Shown here piece after piece: positions 2,003 to 64,000 of a stretch of DNA of 64,000 nucleotides; position 1 is the first letter of the stretch, and each line of letters starts with the position of its first letter. Source of the stretch: Porphyra umbilicalis (Eukaryota; Rhodophyta; Bangiophyceae; Bangiales; Bangiaceae); contig KV918779.1 in assembly GCA_002049455.2 (NCBI GenBank), positions 310,001 to 374,000 of the forward strand, in the 5' to 3' direction. The notes beneath the pieces are model-generated. The model was not told the origin of the DNA. It saw nothing but the letters and a program-made list of their open reading frames with translations, and made no database searches. Position numbers and translations under genes: made by a program.

Positions 2003-5000
2003 TCAGCAAAGCCCCATGGCCTCGACATGCTTGTCGTGCTTGGTCTTGCCGAGCTCCTTCGTCATCGGGTCCGCCACCATGTCGTTCGTTGCACAATGCT
2101 CCAATGTCACCTTGTCCGTCGTGATGGCCTCGCGCACAGAGTGGTAGCGAATGTCGATGTGCTTAGTGCGCTTGTGCTGGACGGGGTTCCTGGAGAAGTC
2201 AATGCACCCGCTGTTGTCGACTTTGATGTTGATCGGCCCGCCCGAGATCGCTGTCCGCAGCCCTTGAGTTGCCACGCTTTGCACGAGCTTGTTGAGCCAA
2301 ACAGCTTCCTTGCTGGCCTCACATAGAGCCATGTACTCAGCTTCCATCGTCGACAGCGCCACCGTCTTCTGCAACTTAGAACCCCAGCTGACGGCTGCTC
2401 CGCCAAAGATGAAGGTAAAGCCCGTCGTCGAACGTCGCGTCTCGTGGTCACCCGCCCAGTCGGCATCACTGAAGCCTTGTAGAACACAGGAAGAGTTCTT
2501 GTCGAAGACCAGCCCCTTGTCCATCGAACCCTTGACGTACCGTAGAACGCGCTTGATCGCCGCCCAATGCTCCTTGCCGTAGCACGAGACAAACCGACTC
2601 AGCTTCCCGATGGCGAAGGCGAGGTCAGGACGTGTTCCGACCATCAGGTACATCAGACTGCCGACAGCTTTGCGGTAGGGCAGCGTGTCGTCGCTCTCGT
2701 CGGCCTTGACCAGCTGCAGGCCCACCTTCAGCGGCGTTCCGATCGGGTTGCACTCCGCCATCCCGAACTTCTCCAGCACTTGCGCCGCGTACTTGCCCTG
2801 CGACAGCTTGAGGGTGCCCAACGCCTTGTCACGCCTAATCTCTAACCCGAGGATGACCTTCGCCTCGCCCAGGTCCTTCATCTCAAAACGCTTGTGCAGA
2901 GCGTCCTTAATCTTGTAGATCGCCGCCAGGCTTGATGCCACCAACAGTAGATCGTCGACGTACACCAGGACGATGATGATTTCACCGTCATCCATAAGGA
3001 TGTAGAGGAATGCATCCAGGTCAATGTTATTGAACCCTTGTGACTTAAGGAAGTCGTTGAGCTTGGCGTACCACATCATGGGAGCTTGCTTCAGCCCATA
3101 CAGCGCTTGGAGGAGACGACACACCTTGTCAGGATACGTCGGATCGACATAGCCGTCTGGCTGCTCCATGTAAACCTCCTCGTCAAGGTCGCCGTTGAGG
3201 AATGCCGTCTTGACGTCCATCTGATGTAGCTCCCACCCGTTCGCCGCCGTCATCGCTAGGATGCATCGGATGGTAGTGAACTTGGCCACCGGCGCGAACG
3301 TCTCGTTGAAGTCGAGCCCCTTGATCTGCCGGTTCCCCATGAAGCACAGGCGCGCCTTGTGCCGCGTCGTGTTGTTCCCATTCTTGTCAACCTCGTTCTT
3401 GACCTTGTACACCCACTTGCCTTTCAGCACGCGTCGACTGGCCGGGCGATCCGTCAAGCGCCAAGTCTTGTTCTTGCGGATGGCCTCCATCTCCTCGTCC
3501 ATGGCAATCTGCCACTTAGCCGATTCCTGCCCTTGAACGGCTTGCACGTACGTCGTGGGCGCCTCGTGAGCAACCAGGCTCACCGCGCGCCAGTACTCGA
3601 CAGGTGGTCGCCGCGCTCTGCCGCTCCGACGCAGCGTGTCTTGAGAGACGCCACAACCTTGATTGTCGTCCGCGGACTTGTCAGATCCATCTCCTTGCTT
3701 GTCATCCTTGTCGTCATTGTCAGCATCTACGTCTTCGCCGTCGCTTGTAGAACGCAAGCCCGTCTCGACTTCGACGATTTCGTCTCCGGGGAGCTCCTCT
3801 GCAACTTCTGCCACCTCGCTTACGTTCGTCTCGGCGAACACCACGCTTCGTGCCTTGACGACCTTGCCGTCGTCGAGGATGACCTTGTACGCCTTGCTGC
3901 CGTCGGAATAGCCTAAGAAGACGCCCTTCGCCGCCTTGTCGCCAAACTTGCCGTCGATGTGACTCTTGTGCAGCACCACCCAGCATGTCGACCCAAACAC
4001 CCGCATGTGGCTGACGTCGGGCTTCTTCCCGGTCCACAGCTCAAAAGACGTCTTGCCGACGGGAAGCGCCCGACTGGTGACGCGGTTCTTGATGTACACC
4101 GCCGTCTTGATGGCATCCGCCCAAAGATCCTGATCGACGTCCTTGTGTTGCATCATGGTGCGAGCCATCTCCAAGAGAACTCGGATAAGCCGCTCAGCAG
4201 CCCCGTTCTGCTGCGGCGTGTCGGGCACCGTGGTCTGGTGCGTCGTGCCGTTCTCATCGTGAAGAGCCTTGAATGCGTTCGACACATACTCGCCGCCATT
4301 GTCGTAGCGTAGGATCTTGATCTTGGTACCCGTGTGCAGCTGGGCCTTCGTCAGCCACTTCTTGTACTCAGAGAGCAGATCGCTCTTCTTCTGCAGGAAG
4401 ACCACGTCTGTCCAGCGGGAAAAGTCGTCAGTGAAGGTGCCAAAGTAGAGCGCACCGCCACGCGACGGCTCTGACATTGGCCCGCCCAGGTCCGAGTGCA
4501 CGAGCTGCAGGCGCTTGCTGACTCGACCTCCTCCCGCACTAGGCATAGGCGTCATAGCCGCCTTCCCATACACGCACGGCTCGCAGACGTCCTTGACCGC
4601 CATGGAAGAGCACTTGAGTCCATCGATGTCCTTGTTCTTGATCATCCGCTTAACGCCAGCCACGTTGACGTGCCCAAGGCGCTCATGCCAGAGCTGAAGA
4701 GAGGCCACCGCAGCAATATCCGACAGTGGGGCCATGTCCAGGTGATAGAGCCCACTCTTCCGCGTGCCGCACGCAGCGACCTTGTCGCTAATCTTGATGA
4801 TCGTCTTACCGCCCTTGAATGACACTTCCGCACCACGCTCCTCCATCATGCCGACCGACATGAGGTTGAAGCCCATGGTAGGAACATGGAGCACCTTCTC
4901 CAACTTGATCTTGCGCGTCTTGCCGTGAACGATGACATTGAGCACGACCGTTCCGACGCCCGCCGTGGCTACGGACCCCTTGTCACCCATGGTGACGCTG

Positions 5001-5929
5001 CGTCCCGTAGTCGTCTGGTAGTCGTCGAAGCACCCGCGCATCCAGCACATGTGTGCAGACGCCGCAGAATCGACAAGCCACGACTTGGAGATGTCATCGG
5101 TGTCAGCCGCATTGCTTACCAGACAGATGGCGTCGTAGCTGTCGCTACCATCGTCAGCCGCAATCGCGGCCACCTTGTCCTGTCTCTGCTTCTTGGCCTT
5201 GAGCTCTGGGAAATCGTGAGAGATATGCCCAAACTTATGGCAGTAGTAACACTCGATCTTGGAGAGGTCACCACGGCGGCCTTGACCTCGATAGTTGGCG
5301 CCGACGAGTGCCATGTCGCCAATGCGCTTGGTCGACGGTGACTTGTCCGCCTGCCGCCGCTCCTCCTGAAGCAAGCGGCTCTTGACAAAGTCGAGGCTCA
5401 GCTCGTCCTCGCCCTTGGCGTCGAGAGCCACCGGCAGGTTCTCGTACTTGAACGTCAGCCCGTTGAGGACACTCATAGCAACGTCCATCTCCGTCACCTC
5501 GCCGCCCATGGCCTTGAGGTTCTCGCCGAGGTTGCGCACGCGGTTGATGTAGCCCAGCATGCCCTCACCGACGGTCATTTCGACGGTGTAGAACTCGCGG
5601 CGCGCCTTCATCTTGTTCATCAAACTCTTGCGCTGGAAGACACCTTGCAGCGTCGACCACATTTCTGCCGTCGTCTTGCAGCCCGACACGTGCTCGAGCT
5701 GCTCAGATACAAGGGTGAGCCCGATGATGGCGCTCGCCTTCGTGTCTCGACGCTTCCACACCGCCAACTCGCGGGCATCCGCGTCCGTCGGCTTGCCGTC
5801 TTCGTCAAGCATATCGTCCAGGTCGCGCAGCGCGAGGACCATTTTAATGCGCTGACGCCATTCGTGGAAATTCGTCTCCGTCAACTTGTCGATCTTGATG
5901 CCGCCCATGCCGGCAGCGCCTCCGTCCAT
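2003..5929 (-). CDS. copia gag-pol polyprotein (1308 aa)
   Basis: Single uninterrupted ORF in Ty1/copia order. A UBN2-type gag N-terminus comes first. The CCHC zinc knuckle lies near residues 227-240, but its last position is Phe instead of Cys (CYYC-x4-H-x4-F; one base, TTC for TGC). Then come an aspartic protease with DSA near residue 290, an integrase with H-H-C-C (LWHERLGH...CEPC), and a DDE core (HSDLGGP, YDNGGEYV, QQNGAAERL). Reverse transcriptase follows with YVDD near 990, then RNase H with DADWAGD and the C-terminal KHIDIRYH motif. The ATG at 5929 follows the 5' LTR, PBS and leader. All polymerase and integrase motifs look intact, so the zinc-knuckle change is the only visible defect; it could impair RNA packaging. 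Length is typical of copia polyproteins. Confidence 0.95.
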   Translation of the reverse strand: MDGGAAGMGGIKIDKLTETNFHEWRQRIKMVLALRDLDDMLDEDGKPTDADARELAVWKRRDTKASAIIGLTLVSEQLEHVSGCKTTAEMWSTLQGVFQRKSLMNKMKARREFYTVEMTVGEGMLGYINRVRNLGENLKAMGGEVTEMDVAMSVLNGLTFKYENLPVALDAKGEDELSLDFVKSRLLQEERRQADKSPSTKRIGDMALVGANYRGQGRRGDLSKIECYYCHKFGHISHDFPELKAKKQRQDKVAAIAADDGSDSYDAICLVSNAADTDDISKSWLVDSAASAHMCWMRGCFDDYQTTTGRSVTMGDKGSVATAGVGTVVLNVIVHGKTRKIKLEKVLHVPTMGFNLMSVGMMEERGAEVSFKGGKTIIKISDKVAACGTRKSGLYHLDMAPLSDIAAVASLQLWHERLGHVNVAGVKRMIKNKDIDGLKCSSMAVKDVCEPCVYGKAAMTPMPSAGGGRVSKRLQLVHSDLGGPMSEPSRGGALYFGTFTDDFSRWTDVVFLQKKSDLLSEYKKWLTKAQLHTGTKIKILRYDNGGEYVSNAFKALHDENGTTHQTTVPDTPQQNGAAERLIRVLLEMARTMMQHKDVDQDLWADAIKTAVYIKNRVTSRALPVGKTSFELWTGKKPDVSHMRVFGSTCWVVLHKSHIDGKFGDKAAKGVFLGYSDGSKAYKVILDDGKVVKARSVVFAETNVSEVAEVAEELPGDEIVEVETGLRSTSDGEDVDADNDDKDDKQGDGSDKSADDNQGCGVSQDTLRRSGRARRPPVEYWRAVSLVAHEAPTTYVQAVQGQESAKWQIAMDEEMEAIRKNKTWRLTDRPASRRVLKGKWVYKVKNEVDKNGNNTTRHKARLCFMGNRQIKGLDFNETFAPVAKFTTIRCILAMTAANGWELHQMDVKTAFLNGDLDEEVYMEQPDGYVDPTYPDKVCRLLQALYGLKQAPMMWYAKLNDFLKSQGFNNIDLDAFLYILMDDGEIIIVLVYVDDLLLVASSLAAIYKIKDALHKRFEMKDLGEAKVILGLEIRRDKALGTLKLSQGKYAAQVLEKFGMAECNPIGTPLKVGLQLVKADESDDTLPYRKAVGSLMYLMVGTRPDLAFAIGKLSRFVSCYGKEHWAAIKRVLRYVKGSMDKGLVFDKNSSCVLQGFSDADWAGDHETRRSTTGFTFIFGGAAVSWGSKLQKTVALSTMEAEYMALCEASKEAVWLNKLVQSVATQGLRTAISGGPINIKVDNSGCIDFSRNPVQHKRTKHIDIRYHSVREAITTDKVTLEHCATNDMVADPMTKELGKTKHDKHVEAMGLC

Positions 5930-55795: not shown

Positions 55796-56339
55796 CCGTT
55801 TTGTTTTCTCAAAACAGTGGTTCCTGATTCGAGATGGCAGTGCGTGTTATAGGTAGTCAAAATGTATGTTGGTCGGGGAGGAGTGGACCCCGCAGCCTCG
55901 GACTGTTGGCATCTTGCCTGACCGAAAAAAGCATGACGGGTGGTTTTTTTACGCCAAACGACGCATACCATCGTGACCAGCGCACCAGAAAGCACCATAT
56001 GGGTTCCTTTGCAGAGGATGTGTGTTTTAGTCGTTTTGCTCATCTTTCACCGGGAAGTGCCCAATGCACCCCCGAGAGGGACACGACTGCGGGCTGGTAC
56101 AAACGAGAAGAGAGGTCCAACTGGACAGTTCTTTCTCTGGCTGGAGGTACTCAGGAGGGATGGAGTACCCTACAAGAGACAAGTGCATTTGCTTTTACCT
56201 GGAAAAGACCATGGGAATTGCCGTACACGCGAAGGGAAGCGCAACAGAGTGAGGCACTGGATTGTACAGTGTCAGCTGTGGGCCACACGCGCTGCGCATT
56301 GGCCAGCGTGTTCCGCAGATCGGTTCTGATCCGCAGATC
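55796..56339. other. no gene recognised
   Basis: Lower-GC spacer (starts TTTTGTTTTCTC after the minisatellite). Short open frames only. Confidence 0.4.
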
Positions 56340-56830
56340 GGTTCTGACACTGCCGCGGTCGCCACCCTGGTGTTGGCCGTCGTCGGGGCCAACCTGTTCA
56401 ACTCGAACTTGGTCGCCACGAGCGCCAACTCCGCCAGGTCCAACATCCGGTTCCGCAGCACCGTCACCGCAAGCACCGGCGTGCGCTCCGCCTCGGTGCC
56501 CGCCCTCGCCACCGCCATCACGCGCGTCTTGCACACTGCCGTCTCGATAGCGGCGCGGACCGCGACCACCTTCTACGGCGCCGTCTTGACCGTGCGTTAT
56601 GCCGCGGTCGCCACCTTGGCGTTGACCGTTGGCTGCACCATCGCTTGCAACTCCAACATTGTCACGGATGGCGCCAACTCCGGCAGCACGAACATCAGGT
56701 CCGGCGCCAGCACCACCACGAGCACCGGCGCGCGCATCACCTTGGTGCCCGCCTTCGCGACCGCCATCACGCCCATCTTGCGCACCGCCGTCACTTTTGC
56801 GGCGCGCACGATGAGCGTACGCAGCGAGAA
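56340..56830. repeat. two diverged ~245-bp tandem units, coding strand ambiguous
   Basis: About 56345-56590 and 56590-56830 are diverged copies of one unit (shared CGGTCGCCACC, GCCAACTCC, GTGCCCGCC..CGCGACCGCCATCAC blocks). Both strands are open. The minus strand reads as helical, heptad-like protein (VMAVARAGTEAERTPVLAV; DLAELALVATKFEL), which looks more natural than the Ala/Thr/Ser plus-strand reading. It could be a remnant of a helical-repeat gene. It abuts the copia integrase fragment. Confidence 0.45.
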
Positions 56831-56839
56831 CATCGCTAT

Positions 56840-57178
56840 TCTTTTGCAAGAAGACCCCGTCCGTCCAGCGGGAGAAGCCTTCGGTGAAGGTGTCGATATA
56901 GAGCGCACCGCCACGCGACGGCTTTGAAATTGGCCCGCCCAGGTCCGAGTGCACGAGCTGCAGGCACTTGGTCACTCGACCTCCTCCTGCGCCAGGCATA
57001 GGCGTGATAGCCGCCTTCCCATACACGCACGGCTCGCAGACATCCTTAACCGCCATGGAAGAGCACTTGAGTCCGTCAATGTCCTTCTTCTTGATCATCC
57101 GCTTGACGCCAGCCATGTTCACGTGCCCTAGGCGCTCATGCCACAGCTGCAGCGAGGCCACCGCAGCAACATCCGACG
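56840..57178 (-). pseudogene. copia integrase fragment
   Basis: About 113 codons nearly identical to copia-1 integrase, from SDVAAVASLQLWHERLGHV through the zinc domain (CEPCVYGKAA) and the first catalytic Asp (HSDLGGP) to FLQKNSDVLA. Truncated on the left by the tandem-repeat sequence and on the right by insertion of gypsy-2 at 57178/57179. Confidence 0.9.
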
Positions 57179-57987
57179 TGTGGGGGAAACCCCCTGACAG
57201 GGGAGACACGACCCCCCGGCATGAGCCGGGGACGGGTCGTGAACAGTCACGCAACACCCCCCTAGGGGGGTAGCGTGGGACAACCCCCTTGGGGGGTGTC
57301 CAGGGAGCCCCAGGGCCACACATGAAACGACCCCTCTAGAGGGGCGTGAGGCGTGGAGCACCCGATCGGGCCCCCCTGGGGGGGTCTGGCACACGCAAGG
57401 GAGGCACACGTCATCCCGAATCCGGGCCCTCTGGGGGAACCGGGAAGCTTGAGGAAGCTTCCGCAATCCGAGCGTAAGCCGGACCGAGATATGATCTCGA
57501 CCAGGGATAAAATCCCACCGGAATTCTATCCGGGAAAATTGAAAAATCTTGGGATAAGTCCCGAGGTATTGGTTTTGGGTAAATCCTGAAATCTAGGAAG
57601 TCTTAGTGACTTTCCTGCTTCCGCCCGAGACGGGCGGGGGTCCCCTTCCAGTGGAAGGGCTGTCAGGGATGCTGGGCAGGGGTCACTAGAGGCCCGGGCC
57701 TGAGACCGTGGCCCGTTGGGTACCGGTCCCCCCATGGTAGCGCCAGGGGGTCGGGATTGTGCACGTCCTGCGTCTTGCTTCTGAGGGTATATGAGAGTAT
57801 GCTTTGGGGTCATCGTGCGTGCTCGAATAAATCATCGTTGCGTTTGCGTTGCTTCCGTCGTTTTTGTGCGCTTCGCGCCCAGTGATCCCGGCGTTCGCGT
57901 TGTGATTCTGGCGTAGCGATCCGCACCCTGTGCTGGGTTTTCTGACGGGGTTATACCCCGTTGGCTTTGAGGGCAGGATCCACTACA
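57179..57987 (+). repeat. 5' LTR of gypsy-2
   Basis: Begins TGTGGGGGAAACCCCC at the break in the copia fragment and ends GATCCACTACA (TG...CA; CTACA as in gypsy-1). 809 bp, inferred from ends because the 3' LTR is not in the window. Rich in hairpins such as GAAGCTT/AAGCTTC at 57444-57461 and CGAGAT/ATCTCG at 57485-57499. A candidate TATA-like GGGTATATGAGAG lies near 57785. Confidence 0.7.
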
Positions 57988-57989
57988 TT

Positions 57990-58002
57990 TGGTGGATCAG
58001 CC
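57990..58002 (+). promoter_or_regulatory. candidate primer-binding site of gypsy-2
   Basis: TGGTGGATCAGCC starts 2 nt after the LTR. Together with the LTR end it forms an inverted repeat (GGATCCAC/GTGGATC), so it could also fold back on the LTR end. tRNA not identified. Confidence 0.4.
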
Positions 58003-58148
58003 GGGGACAGGTTCAAGCCCTTCCTGATCAGTCGGGCCGTCCGTGTTCGTTTCTTACGGTGGACTTGCTCTCTTTTGTCTTACCCTTGGGTGTGACTGGT
58101 TGCCTGGTTGATTGGATTCTCCCAAGGGGGAGTAGGGCTTCCATATTT

Positions 58149-59894
58149 ATGGATAGCATGAGGGGGATGTTGTCCCGCGCAGAAGGCGCGGGCTCCTCTT
58201 CACGGGGCGTCCATAATGGAGCTAGTGAGAGCTCAGGGCCGGGAGGCTTTTTGGGGGACCCTCCTCATGTGGAGGGTCGCGCGCGCGTGTTCACGAGAGT
58301 GCGTGGCACCGCGAGCGACGGAGGCGGGGTCGGTGACGGACTCCCGTCCCCCCCTTCTGTTGAGACCGCCACAAGGGGTCGAGAGAGAGTCTCCCCCAGA
58401 GTGCCGGGACCCCTGGGGGGTGGAGGACAAGAGGTCCCACACCAAGAACAGGGGCAGTATGACGGTCGGGCTCGGCGGGCTAGGCCCGCCGGCTTACCCC
58501 ATACACCCCCACAAGTCAGTGGGGTTGGGGTCCCGCAAGGGGCCCTGGAAGGGGACGCCTTTTCGGCGGCCCTACGGGAATCACTGGATGCGTTTATTAG
58601 CCCGCTCCACGAGCGGTTGTCTTTCTTGGAGACAACCCTTGGGGCCTCCCGACGGTCGAGACGCCGTCGTCGCCGGTTGAGTTCCTCCTCCTCGGATGGG
58701 GAGTACTCCGGTGGGGATGGGGGACGTCATGTCCCCCGACGTGCGGTAGCACGCGCCCTAGGGCGCGAGCTAGAGGGAGACCCTCGTCGCCGACTTCCCG
58801 AGAAGATCATCCCGGCGGATGATCGATATTCAGTGATTCTGGATTGTGCCGCGTACGCCTTGGCGAACACGGACGTCCGGTATGACCGGACGATGGCACA
58901 CGGCCTAGGCCGTCTGCGCAAGGATGTCTCGGCCACCTTTGGTCGAGACGCAGAATGGGATGGGACGCCAGCCTTAGGCGTCTTTGAGTTCTTGAACCGC
59001 TTTGTAAAAGCGGGGAATGACAATGATGTGTCAGAGGGCAGAGCCCTCTACCTACTCCCGGAGTTCACCAAAGGTGATCTCAAGCGGGAATTGTACACCA
59101 TCATGCCGTCCCTCCAAGGAGGACGGAGTGGAGAGGTCAGTTCCTATATGGAACTGGTCAACTGGCTCCTCCGCAAATATGCGGACGAGCAGTCGCTAAG
59201 CGACCAGGACGCTCTGTTCCACGGAGCATCCCAAGAGGATGGGGAAACCGAGAACGATTTCTACGTACGCCTCAGGGGGCTACGTCGCCTCTGTGGGTAT
59301 ATCCACACAGAGGGCCAGATGAAGAGCCGCTATATGCAGGGGCTCTGATGGGAGATTCGCGCAGATGTGCGCGAACACAACACCGGCAATATGCCGATGG
59401 ACCTCTTGGTGCAATATGCCCAGAGGAAGGGTGACGTCTGTCGCAGACGTCACGAAGAGCAACTGGCCGGAGAGGCCCGACGGGCCGAGGCCCGTCGAGA
59501 GCGCCGAGCCGCCCGGCCGACACCACGCAAGTATGTCACCGCGGCGGTGACAGCCCCAACTAAGGTGGGGGAAGTCCCGGCAGGTCCTTCTTCAAGGGGT
59601 AAAGGGCGCTTTGGGCAGCCCCGGAACTACAACTGCCTCGCATGTAACATGCGAGGACATTTCTTCCGTGAGTGTCCCCGCCTTGACGCGGCGACCAAGG
59701 CCCTGTTGAACAAGGCCTATGAGGAACGTATGGCGGAGCGTCCTCAAGAGGACCAGCGCCGTCCTAAGCAGACGGTGGCAGCGGTGGGCACCAGCCTAGG
59801 GCCACCGTGGTCGTCATCGGATGACACTCCACCCCCAGGGGTGGAGGCCGAAGAGTTGGTTCAGGAGGACAAGTCCTCCTCGGAAAACGAGTAA
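58149..59894 (+). pseudogene. gypsy-2 gag, one in-frame TGA
   Basis: ATG 58149 (MDSMRGMLSRAEGAGS) begins a Gly/Ser/Arg-rich N-terminus. It is followed by the retrotransposon gag core (GVFEFLNRFVKAGNDND; ELVNWLLRKYADEQ; LRGLRRLCGYIHTEGQMK), TGA at 59346 after YMQGL, then WEIRADVREHN in the same frame. The CCHC knuckle (C-LA-C-NMRG-H-FFRE-C, about 59635-59676) precedes an acidic end at TAA 59892. About 580 residues, normal for gypsy gag. The frame would also open upstream from a GTG in the LTR, but ATG 58149 is preferred. The TGA may be a single inactivating mutation (gypsy-1 has PEYLRTD at this place) or a read-through stop. The last codons GGAAAAC and a following hairpin suggest a frameshift into pol. 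Confidence 0.75.
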
Positions 59895-59920
59895 CGGGGG
59901 CGGTGGTCCCGCCTCCCCCG
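59882..59920 (+). promoter_or_regulatory. candidate -1 frameshift site between gag and pol of gypsy-2
   Basis: GGAAAAC (59882-59888) ends the gag frame just before TAA 59892. Seven nt later a GC-rich hairpin begins (GGGGGCGG pairing with CCGCC.CCCCC, 59896-59919). Pol is open in the -1 frame across this point. The heptamer is not a canonical X-XXY-YYZ, so this is a suggestion only. Confidence 0.35.
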
Positions 59921-62900
59921 ACAACTCTAAGGGCAACAAGGAGGTACAAGTCTTCCCGGCGAGCCGGGAAGAACTGGCCGAAACGGCCACCGGGGGTATC
60001 CCAAGGGAAACCCCCTGAGGGCACGGCATGTGTATTCATGCCCTCTTCTAGCTATAAGCTAGTGGTCAGGTTATTCCTGACGAAAGGTTTCGACCTTACC
60101 ACTCGGGCCATCCTGGATACCGGGAGTGGCCCAACGCTGATAAGCCGGCAGTTACTGCCGGACGACACCCCGCTATAACTCCTAGGGGAGTGGGCGTCAA
60201 TGTTCCACGATGTCAATGGGGGATGGCTCCCCATTGTGGGTTCAGTATGTCTTGGTGTGGCCCTTGGGGGCCAGACCTCCTACATCTCCTTTGGAGTTGT
60301 TGACAATATGAGCGTCCCAGCAATACTGGGCGCATCCTTTATGGATATCGCAACAAAGAATATTGCGACTCAGGAGCAACATGTGGAGCTGCTTAATGGT
60401 ACCAAGGTACCTATCCGACGAGACGGTGCCCGCAAGGGGCACCCGATCGCGTCCGTCAGCGCGGTATGTGCGTGCCCCCAAGGGGGAACGGCTAAGCTAA
60501 GGCCAGCCAGAAAGACTTGGGTAAATCCCGGGACTATTGCACATATCCCCGTGAAGGGTACCTACACGGGGCATGGCTTCGTTACGGGGCGACCCCGGTT
60601 ATACCACAACCATGGTATACAGGTTGCCCAGGGACCCGCCATCATGGTGGCGGGCGAGCCGACAACCGTCCAAGTTATGCACTTGGGCGCCACGCCCCTT
60701 CGGCTGACAACCGACATGACCGTGGGGTTTATCGACCCCTATGAGGGGCCGACCTATGAGGTACCCCGGGACAAGACCCCGAGGCGCGACGAGACCTCCA
60801 AGGAGGAGAAGGATTCTCCACTCCCAGGAGTGGACGTGTCGTCGGTACCCGACGAATGGTCAGAGGACCTTAGGGCCCTCTTGAAGAAGCATGCACCCCT
60901 CTGGGGGGGTAACCTGGGGTTGATACGCGGTGTAGAACACCGCATCCGCCTCAAGCCCGGGGCTGTTCCCGTGAGGCAACACCTTTACAAGGCCGGGCCT
61001 TTGGCCCGGGAGAGAGAGAAAGCTGAAGTCGAGCGCATGTGCTCGATGGGGGTTATAGAACCCTCCACTGGAAAATGGGCTAGCCCAGTCGTTATGGTGC
61101 CGAAGCCAGATGGCTCGGTACGCTTCTGTATTGATTACAGGACGCTGAACTTGATGACAGTCAAGGATGCGTACCCCATTCCTAGGATGGATGAATGCAT
61201 CGATGTCCTAGGGGATGCCAGGGTGTTTTCCACCCTGGACTGCAACGCCGGCTACTTGCAGATACCAGTGGCCGAGGAGGATAAACACCTTACGGCGTTC
61301 ACGTGCCATTCAGGCGCGTGGCAGTGCGTGCGCCTCCCCTTTGGGTTGTGCAATGCCCCTGCCACCTTTCAAAGGGCTATGGATATGATCCTGGCAGGGG
61401 TCAAGTGGCAGATATGCTTAGTATATCTGGATGACGTAATCGTCTTCTCCCGTTCCCCAGAGGAACACTTACAACACCTTGATGAGGTGTTGAAACGCCT
61501 AAGAAAGGCAGGGGTCACCTTAAAGGCGGCCAAATGCCACTTCTTTCTAGAAGAAGTGGAGTACCTCGGCCATGTTATCAGGCCGGGACGAGTGCATGTC
61601 CTGGAGAAGAATCTCCGGGCACTGAGGGGTCTCCGGTATCCGGAGACCCAAACCCAGATGAGGAGTTTCCTGGGCATGTGCGGCGTATATCGCCGCTTCG
61701 TGGCAGACTTCGCCAAGATAGCGAAGCCCCTGACAGCCTTGACGAGCACTAAGCTCCCCAAGAGGTTACCTCCCCCTAGGGAGGAGGAGTCTAAGGCTTT
61801 TGAGGAACTAAGAGGACGGCTTTCAGCCGCCCCCATTCTCGCTCTCCCAAGGAGAGAAGGGCACTACATCGTAGATGTAGACGCCAGCTATGAACAGCTG
61901 GGTTGTTGCTTACAGCAACAACAACCCGATGGGGAGTATCACCCCATCGGCTACTACAGCCGCGCTCTTCTCCCTGCGGAGAAGAACTACTTTGCCACCG
62001 AAATAGAGGCGCTCGGCGTCGTCTGGGCAGTGACCTACTTGAGGTCATACCTCGAAGGGGCAGAGTTTTTGGTCCGGTGTGATCACCGGGCCCTACTATC
62101 GGTACTCACAAACATGAGTCCGAACGCGCGGATAAACCGCTGGCGACTCCGATTATCGGAGTACACCTATGAGATCCGGCATAAGCCGGGTAAAGACCAT
62201 AAGGTCGCAGACGCGCTATCGCGTCTGCCCACGGAGGGTCTCGACTCGACTCCCTTGGACGAGGATATCCCCGTCCTGGCCGTCGAAACCCGGGCGAGCG
62301 ACGCCCTAGAGGCCGCATCGCCAGCCGAAGCACCCCTGGGGGCGCTAACGGCTCAAGAGATTATCCTCGGCCAAGCCGAGGATGCGTTCTGCAAAGAACG
62401 ACTGAAAGAACTAGACGTTCTTTCTCCACCCAACCCCAAGTGGAGTCGGCAAGCCTTCTTCTTCAGGGAGAAGAATGGGCTCCTATGCCGACATTCGGTG
62501 TATGGGAGGGAGACCCAAGTGGTCATCCCCGAGGCGCTGAAACAGCGCCTCCTACGTTACCAACACCAATCGGTGTGGGCCGGTCACCCCGGCTCGCGGA
62601 GGATGTATGACACCCTCCGCCGGTACGTCTACTGGCCTACCATGGTGGTAGACGTCTACAAGCACGTGGAGCAATGCCCCGCGTGCGCCAAGAATCGCCT
62701 CTCCGAGAGGAGGCATACTTCCACTATGAAGCTGTTTCCAGCTCTCGAGCCCTTCTCGGGGCTCGCAATGGACCTTCTAGGCCCATTGACCACCTCTAGG
62801 GGTGGTCACAAACATGTACTGGTCATATGTGACTGGTTTACCAAGTTGACGCAAGCCATCCCTTTAAGGGATGCGACGGCGCTGACGGTATCGTCAGCGT

Positions 62901-63952
62901 TCATTGACACTTGGGTGGCTGCCTATGGCATCCCCGACTCTGTCCTTACGGACAACGGACCTCAGTTAGCCTCGGTATATTACCAGGGCATCCTCGGGTT
63001 GTTGGGTATAGCCTCGAACTATACCTCTCCTTACCACCCCCAGACCAATGGGCAGGTGGAGCGATATAACCGCACCTTGGTGCGGCAGCTCCGATGCTAT
63101 ATTGCTGAGCATCAGAAGGAGTGGGACAGTCATCTGTCCCTTCTTACGACTTCGTATAATACGCAGGTGCACGCGAGCACTGGGGAGATCCCCTTTGCCT
63201 TCGTGAGCCCCAGGCGGCTCCAGCTTATTGGCATGGAGCGCATGCCTCGGCTTAGACAAGCCGAGGAGAGAACTGAGGACGCCTCCACGGCGGCGGAACA
63301 GTATGTCGAGGACCTTAAGTCCCTCATCCCGGCGGTTCGCCGGCAGCTGGGCAAAGCTCAGGCCACGTACAAGCGGGCGTTTGACGCCCGCACCAAGGAG
63401 AAGAACAACTCGGTCAAGGCCGGGGACTGGGTATACCTAGATGCCCACTCCCGTTCTCCGAAGAAGCTTGGGTTTAAGACCCAAGGGCCCTACATGGTGT
63501 TACAGACCGATGGACATCGGTTTCTGGTGGAGAGCCCCAAGGGGCTCCGTACGGTGAGCAGTGACCATGTCACTGGTGCCCCCGCACCACCGGCGCGGGA
63601 TGGCAAGTGGACGAGGGCCCTTAGGGCCCAAGCCCTCTTTAAGATGGGTGACCAAGTTAAAGAGGGCCCTGAGTTCGTCTTCGAACGATTTCTCAACCAT
63701 GGTTGGGATGATGACGGCCAATTGAAGGTCTTAGTCAAATGGTTTGGGTTTCCTGAACAGGAAGCCACGTGGCAATTGGCTTCTTCCCTCCCTAGGGAGG
63801 CAATTCGCAAGTATTGCTTGCGAAAACGTGTCAAGCTCCCCGCCTTGACGCGGGAAGGTGTTTTCTTTTCCGACCAAGTCGGAAGACGGCCCATAGGGGC
63901 TCCTGTGACTTCAAGTCACAGGGAGAGAGGAGGATACAAGAAGAGAGGCTAA
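59897..63952 (+). pseudogene. gypsy-2 pro-pol polyprotein, one in-frame TAA
   Basis: Open in the -1 frame relative to gag. Retropepsin with an intact active site (ILDTGSGPTLI, about 60110-60145) is followed by TAA at 60176, and the frame continues as LLGEWASMFHDV to 63950. Numbered from ATG 60200: RT with VFSTLDCNAGY and YLDD near 409; RNase H (VDVDASYEQLG; DHRALLSVL; VADALSRLP); integrase zinc domain (HPGSRRMYD..CPACAKN) and DDE at about 858, 918 and 954 (MDLLGPL, LTDNGPQ, NGQVERYN; 35 residues between the last two, as in the family); a C-terminal chromodomain (FERFLNHGWDDDGQLKVLVK, then WFGFPEQEATW) near 1155-1215. All catalytic residues are kept, so apart from the stop it looks competent and recently active. 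Chromodomains steer integration to marked chromatin. Confidence 0.85.
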
Positions 63953-64000
63953 GCCTTTTATTCCCTACGGGGCCCGAGACCAGTCTATCGTAAGATAGAT

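Follow-up and report, generated by a model that had tools for sequence, protein, structure and literature searches.

What maintains a dense series of short perfect inverted repeats along the length of a long terminal repeat (LTR) retrotransposon? The question is raised by positions 57179–64000 of a 64,000-nt stretch of the Porphyra umbilicalis genome (contig KV918779.1, positions 310,001 to 374,000; the whole stretch is called the window hereafter), which hold a Ty3/Gypsy element of approximately 10.1 kb from LTR to LTR, with the 5′ LTR in the window and the 3′ LTR beyond its end. This element and several related families of the same genome very probably carry element-wide inverted-repeat arrays that exceed what protein sequence, codon usage and base composition would produce. 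The geometry of the arrays differs among families, the stems of families A and E show signs of selection during transposition and decay nearly neutrally after insertion, and positions have mostly turned over between families. The features of the window copy are as follows.

57179..64000, no strand assigned: hairpin array with family-A geometry, 100 perfect stems of at least 6 bp with loops of 3–10 nt.
57179..57987, plus strand: 5′ LTR, TG...CA, 809 bp, from LTR alignments.
57930..59348, plus strand: first part of the gag open frame.
57977..57998, plus strand: perfect hairpin GATCCAC/GTGGATC, whose 8-nt loop bridges the end of the LTR and the beginning of the presumed primer-binding site.
59367..59894, plus strand: second part of the gag open frame, which continues in frame and includes a zinc-knuckle-like stretch.
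59431..59453, no strand assigned: example stem GTGACGTCTG/CAGACGTCAC, loop TCG, in gag.
60200..63952, plus strand: pol, with RVT_1, RNase H, integrase H2C2 and rve, and Chromo.
62207..62228, no strand assigned: example stem GCAGACGCG/CGCGTCTGC, loop CTAT, in pol.
63902..63922, no strand assigned: example stem CCTGTGACT/AGTCACAGG, loop TCA, at the end of pol.
63953..64000, minus strand: start of the region after pol.
C19:376471-377280, outside the window: 3′ LTR, from LTR alignments.

The basic count comprised non-overlapping perfect stems with arms of at least 6 bp and loops of 3–10 nt; all 14 inverted repeats that an earlier note had listed from this element proved exact. Counts in the window were compared with 100 shuffles each of three kinds: synonymous-codon shuffles, codon swaps keeping the neighbouring bases, and dinucleotide shuffles. 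Pol carried 58 stems, in comparison to 10.2 ± 2.8 (maximum 19) under codon shuffling, 12.0 ± 3.0 (maximum 21) under the neighbour-keeping swap and 6.4 ± 2.4 (maximum 12) under dinucleotide shuffling. The two gag parts carried 19 and 7 stems (4.5 and 2.0 expected under codon shuffling), and positions 57179–57929 carried 8 (1.8 expected, dinucleotide). The hairpins therefore go beyond protein sequence and codon usage, as the note had supposed. They continued past the window (13 stems versus 2.4 in L076 1-900; 21 versus 4.3 in L076 1501-3000, which includes 530 nt of the 3′ LTR), and the 9292 nt from the start of the 5′ LTR to the start of the 3′ LTR held 134 stems versus 17.4 expected. The claim that the array begins at the element boundary also held, as the density outside was that of the background: 1 stem versus 2.1 in the copia remnant left of the LTR, and 3 versus 1.9 at the 3′ flank (280 nt of LTR plus 720 nt of flank). 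When the window was divided into 1-kb bins, 10–18 stems fell in each of the seven bins from 57001 and 0–10 in each of the other 57, the higher ones being G+C-rich. The other elements of the window, in which the note had found the pattern not obvious, were near chance (copia-1, 5 versus 7.3; gypsy-1 pieces, 5 versus 3.5 and 1 versus 1.7), one gypsy-1 piece having 3 stems of at least 7 bp versus 0.9 (z = 2.4). Among repeat types in the window pol (arm 6, loop 3–10, overlapping counts), inverted repeats numbered 123 versus 14.0 expected, direct repeats 13 versus 10.0, mirror repeats 9 versus 10.0 and complement repeats 34 versus 10.9. The interval of approximately 30–50 bp given in the note needs correction: for stems of at least 6 bp, the mean distance was 68 nt and the median 55. 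With arms of at least 5 bp and loops of up to 8 nt, there was approximately one stem per 49 nt (189 in 9292 nt). No regular spacing was found in the window copy (A1), the main group of its family (A2) or subgroup B1, and the spacing in family A was that of random placement. No special tetraloop was outstanding when the loop lists were read by eye.

The genome itself (83.8 Mb, 665 contigs) was searched with the reverse transcriptase (RT) piece of the element; 150 of the 912 candidates were scored, of which 70 were examined as 3.6-kb pol pieces. Families, designated here by our own letters, were defined by RT identity and alignment, and the 70 pieces comprised 27 of A, 20 of B (subgroups B1–B4), 6 of C, 7 of D and 10 of E (L067 being designated E2). 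The A copies shared 84–100% amino-acid identity, and A1 was 69–78% identical in nucleotides to the other 26. Relative to 20 dinucleotide shuffles of each piece, stems numbered 28–57 in A (5–7 expected), 19–28 in B (6–8), 19–20 in C (7–9), 15–21 in E (10–12) and 3–6 in D (9–10). All 27 A copies exceeded expectation, so that the pattern recurs in other members of the family, and the lowest A counts came from copies whose open frames are short or which contain stops. L083, one more relative of A but truncated, had 14 stems versus 5.9, and 5′ pieces were similarly rich (A2, 37 versus 7.7; B1, 30 versus 10; B2, 21 versus 7.2). A search of viral contigs gave 51 pattern matches, none encoding a relative. 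The folding energies of 3-kb pol pieces, compared with 24 codon shuffles on both strands, gave z scores of −10 to −15 on the plus strand and −13 to −20 on the minus strand in A (three pieces), −8 to −11 in B (four), −3 to −8 in C (two), −3 to −5 in E (two) and approximately 0 in D (two). The scores were similar on both strands, strongest in A, then in B, then in C and E. As a separate and weak observation on a single lineage, the family D counts (L044, L047, L052, L053, L054, L056 and L060) lay below expectation, as if structure were avoided.

The loop and arm spectra differed among the representatives of A, B, C, D and E. In A, loops peaked at 3–6 nt with arms of 5–10 bp, loops in B1 and B2 were mostly 6 to 12 nt long, and E showed one sharp class of 13-nt hairpins made of 5-bp arms and a 3-nt loop (5-3-5). 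In the spectrum of the E copy L070, 26 hairpins had exactly 5 bp versus 5.6 expected, and 17 versus 1.8 had the loop ends paired too. Its pol (C185:125609-129256) contained 48 5-3-5 sites versus 11.3 ± 2.2, or versus 12.2 under the context-preserving control (maximum 18 of 60), and the arms were exactly 5 bp long in 43 of the 48, where chance would give, by a rough estimate, three quarters. These sites had no common arm sequence, as judged by eye and from base counts. The gag piece L085 (C185:124000-125608), fetched afterwards, contained 26 such sites versus 3.7 (maximum 10 of 200 shuffles) and is an independent confirmation of the class. The class was present in all nine E copies (29–49 versus 5.2–10.9), and weakly in E2 (21 versus 8.3); it was also found in A2 (15 versus 5.7) and C (16 versus 6.2), and no excess was seen in B1 (4 versus 4.2) or in three D copies (2, 4 and 6 versus 4.5, 5.8 and 7.5). 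The spacing in E was suggestive only: the observed value or a lower one arose in a fraction of 0.000–0.148 of the simulations for eight of nine related copies, and of 0.858 for the ninth. Family B had a loop signature: in six pooled pieces of B1–B4 (L030, L029, L040, L028, L078 and L079), ACT or AGT occurred in 66 of 124 loops of 5–12 nt versus 24.5 expected, other A/T-rich triplets being similarly enriched (CTA/TAG, 30 versus 10.8; TAA/TTA, 20 versus 7.4). B3 alone was not significant in this respect, and the 3′ piece of A1 had ACT or AGT in 5 of 13 loops versus 1.2. Two further observations concern 5-3-5 sites: the third loop base was C in 56% of those in L070, and in C (L051) the closing pair was C-G in 14 of 16 and the loop was an in-frame codon in 12 of 16.

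Comparison of copies within families indicated when the stems are under constraint. Changes found in one copy only (private) were taken as mostly post-insertion, those found in at least two copies were called shared, and family stems were those present in at least half of the copies. In E, shared variants were strongly depleted in the arms (1/486 versus 78/3162 elsewhere, p = 0.0003), whereas private variants occurred at 32/486 versus 282/3162 (ratio 0.74, p = 0.1). The stem-to-rest ratio in A2 was 0.63–0.67 for shared changes and 0.96–0.98 for private ones; that of private changes was 1.11 in B1 and 0.95 in C; shared changes in D (8/272 versus 72/3375) did not differ significantly. The pattern of private and shared changes implies that, in A and E, it is not the host genome that maintains the stems of copies after insertion. 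A1 and A2, 80% identical in nucleotides over pol in a codon alignment, had 25 of 62 stem axes in common (null 1.0). A check for compensatory change, proposed in the earlier note, revealed that their stems covary: pair-restoring double changes made up 10 of 18 and 12 of 19, whereas slid partners gave 2.7 of 9.4 and 1.6 of 10.1, with at most 7 and 6 at any of 24 offsets. In another alignment, 10 and 12 of the restoring changes were double transitions, versus 0–2 for slid partners. At four-fold degenerate sites, with stems defined on A1 alone, A1 and A2 differed at 40/112 in A1 stems versus 157/307 outside stems and loops (p = 0.006). The amino acid was changed in stem codons no more often than in others (30/276 versus 111/724, p = 0.08). 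Axes common to A and B numbered 1–4, little above the null of 0.2–0.6, and those common to E and E2 numbered 3 (null 0.2). Between families the density is kept, within a family the shape is kept, and the place mostly turns over. The data fit a constraint that acts during transposition of the lineage; its signal is strong in E, moderate in A and not detectable in B1.

On the best reading, Watson-Crick hairpins are the selected feature, and a protein of the element may read them; among the selective readings, recognition by a protein is favoured because it best accounts for a shape that differs between families. We tentatively propose that the arrays consist of many weak sites, defined by shape, to which a nucleic-acid-binding protein encoded by the element would bind; the simplest candidate is Gag/nucleocapsid. 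Through the hairpins, this protein would recognise its own transcript or single-stranded complementary DNA (cDNA), condense it and package it. Selection would act on how many sites there are and what shape they have, whereas their sequence and place would be free to vary, and each family, by keeping its own shape, would let its proteins favour its own nucleic acid. With still more reserve, we suggest that co-resident Gypsy families may each write, along their length and by means of synonymous sites, a hairpin geometry that is independent of sequence (in family E, for instance, a 5-3-5 hairpin approximately every 60–76 nt). During replication this geometry would serve as a barcode that tells self from non-self; if true, protein coding would here be overlaid by a genomic code of a new kind.

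Several results weigh against this reading. The depletion of shared changes in A2 stems (16/678 versus 111/2970 in the rest) reached only p = 0.08 when taken alone, B1 showed no depletion (21/380 versus 194/3268), and in C (0/228 versus 31/3420) the changes were too few for significance. Private changes were commoner in the stems of D (30/272 versus 208/3375, ratio 1.79, p = 0.003) and in the 5-3-5 arms of C (29/200 versus 324/3448, ratio 1.54, p = 0.03), so that the neutral yardstick is not perfectly flat. Covariation was mixed in other family pairs (B1–B3, 11/16 versus 3.2; B1–B2, 2/9 versus 2.5), and for A1–B1 (26/64 versus 16.7) it remained below the slid maximum of 28. The E arms were not conserved relative to E2 at four-fold sites (33/53 versus 191/324), which is predicted by turnover but equally by an absence of selection. 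The favoured loop triplets of B were raised in both senses (ACT, 41 versus 13.7; AGT, 26 versus 11.2, as sums). Furthermore, if the plus-strand RNA were the folded molecule, G-U should exceed A-C among single mismatches and the loops should be strand-biased. In one-mismatch stems of nine groups, however, G-U was not favoured (90 versus 123 A-C), and no A/T or C/G strand bias of loops was found in any of the nine (p = 0.08 or more). In the 5-3-5 class of E, neither G-U (19 versus 16.6) nor A-C (22 versus 16.9) was clearly raised among single mismatches; in B1, A-C exceeded G-U (0–1 G-U versus 6–13 A-C in five copies; 4 versus 15 in the nine-group count), an A-C mismatch being G-U on the minus strand. 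Plus-strand RNA folding as the sole cause was accordingly rejected. The earlier inference of selection for RNA or single-stranded DNA structure is partly supported: there are signs of selection during transposition, as in the shared variants of E and the covariation of A1 and A2; for plus-strand RNA structure as the selected thing, support was not found.

Of the alternatives to recognition by an element protein, a defence against silencing survives best, although we consider it unlikely. Hairpins on sense and antisense transcripts would block annealing into long double-stranded RNA, or would hide targets or spoil small-RNA guides; as folding would be required of both strands, pairs other than true Watson-Crick ones would be of no help. 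The strand symmetry and the lack of a G-U preference fit this idea, the antisense open frames of the element carry stems as well, and no other explanation accounts so well for the symmetry together with these frames. The host, a red alga by its phycobilisome genes, also has Argonaute and a Dicer-like gene, the latter an open frame that contains two RNase III domains. Within the element, 27% of the sequence lies in hairpins with stems of at least 6 bp, and 51% of 21-nt windows are touched by one, yet about half of such windows remain free, and neither the family geometry, nor the 5-bp arms of E, nor the D stems below chance are explained. Argonaute was represented by two near-equal matches (C574:12904-13800 and C98:72899-73795), possibly alleles or haplotigs.

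A role at the DNA level, in which a cruciform or DNA hairpin in double- or single-stranded cDNA would serve integrase, condensation or replication, is slightly less probable again. It would agree with the strand symmetry of loops and mismatches, and E has odd palindromes with a 1-nt spacer. These palindromes, however, are 5-3-5 sites with a sixth inner pair, loops shorter than 3 nt are less enriched in A than those of 3–6 nt, as for a folded single strand, and in A2 copies, once inserted, stems are lost as fast as the background changes.

We regard as improbable a purely mutational origin, whereby quasi-palindrome template switching in reverse transcription would write and maintain functionless stems, the second mechanism suggested in the earlier note. 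Such a process would explain the family geometry, the lack of an arm consensus, the strand symmetry and the restriction to the transposing lineage. One-armed differences, however, were as frequent as by chance in A (5/29 versus 6.8 expected) and in E/E2 (5/31 versus 6.8 and 1/12 versus 1.4; together 6/43 versus 8.2), the differences falling in both arms. Compensated pairs were rare among the A2 stem changes (0/20 shared, 2/149 private), and amino-acid changes were no more frequent in stem codons. By our reasoning, symmetric correction should not reduce arm variants, which are nevertheless depleted among the shared variants of E. That the array is an artefact of codon usage, base composition or low complexity is scarcely conceivable: some LTR stems are C- and G-runs, complement repeats are also raised in A1, and there is a slight rise of direct repeats in A2 (18 versus 11.0) and of mirror repeats in B1 (16 versus 8.8), but the codon, context and dinucleotide controls are far exceeded, inverted repeats reach 7–9 times expectation in A1 and A2, and there is no excess in the related family D or in the other window elements.

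The insertion itself is young and complete from LTR to LTR, since the LTRs are approximately 99.3% identical (99.2–99.3%, aligned over 530 and 280 nt) and the target duplication CGACG was read in the flanks at both sides of the element. The first gag part, as mechanically listed, has its start within the LTR and terminates at an in-frame TGA (59346-59348), which divides the gag frame of the window copy; it had no Pfam match. The second part gave a borderline match to zf-CCHC_2 (26.6 bits versus a cut-off of 27). In pol, the domain order was RT, RNase H and integrase (RVT_1 300-460, RNase H 528-655, H2C2 776-833, rve 851-947), with a borderline C-terminal Chromo match (25.1 bits, exactly at the cut-off). 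The region that separates pol from the 3′ LTR contains two antisense open frames of 348 and 462 amino acids (L076 95-2264), which overlap each other and lie within the hairpin array; neither had a Pfam match at E 0.01. Among the 150 RT matches scored, no other exceeded 94% amino-acid identity to the window copy. To the left, the element was apparently inserted in a remnant of a copia-1 relative (56151-57178), judged by eye from translations; an antisense frame (56151-57323) likewise resembles by eye the protein of copia-1 (2003-5929, minus strand).

The results, which rest on strong controls, indicate that dense structural constraint can act on the synonymous sites of a mobile element from end to end, in a geometry that varies from family to family; dates derived from synonymous sites of such elements may therefore be biased. 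If a protein reads the hairpins, this would help to explain how an LTR retrotransposon chooses its own nucleic acid among many relatives; if the silencing defence were true, the arrays would be a natural example of structural evasion. Spectra of hairpin geometry provide a sequence-only test that is applicable to the retroelements of any genome.

In its LTRs, target duplication, RT–RNase H–integrase order and chromodomain-like end, the element resembles chromovirus-like Ty3/Gypsy elements, from which it is set apart by the hairpin array and by the antisense open frames that lie after pol and before the 3′ LTR; other Gypsy elements have antisense frames as well. Template-switch mutations can create and maintain hairpins, and perfect inverted repeats and apparent covariation are common to that process and to the arrays, which nevertheless show no excess of one-armed differences and, in E, fewer shared variants in the arms than elsewhere. 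Genome-scale ordered RNA structure (GORS) in plus-strand RNA viruses consists of local structure beyond shuffled controls over coding sequence. The likeness is that structure exceeds shuffles in the 3-kb pol pieces that were folded and that positions are not kept between distant relatives. It differs in its short perfect stems, its family geometry and its being an LTR retrotransposon, and the signs expected of plus-strand structure with tolerated G-U pairs, a G-U preference and a strand bias, were not seen. Dispersed packaging signals are known from small RNA viruses, e.g., the coat-protein stem-loops of MS2 and satellite tobacco necrosis virus (STNV). The B family differs from these in having its favoured loop triplets in both senses. 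The likeness lies in many stem-loops of shared shape and degenerate sequence distributed along the whole element, the common geometry in E and the enriched loop triplets in B being candidate recognition features.

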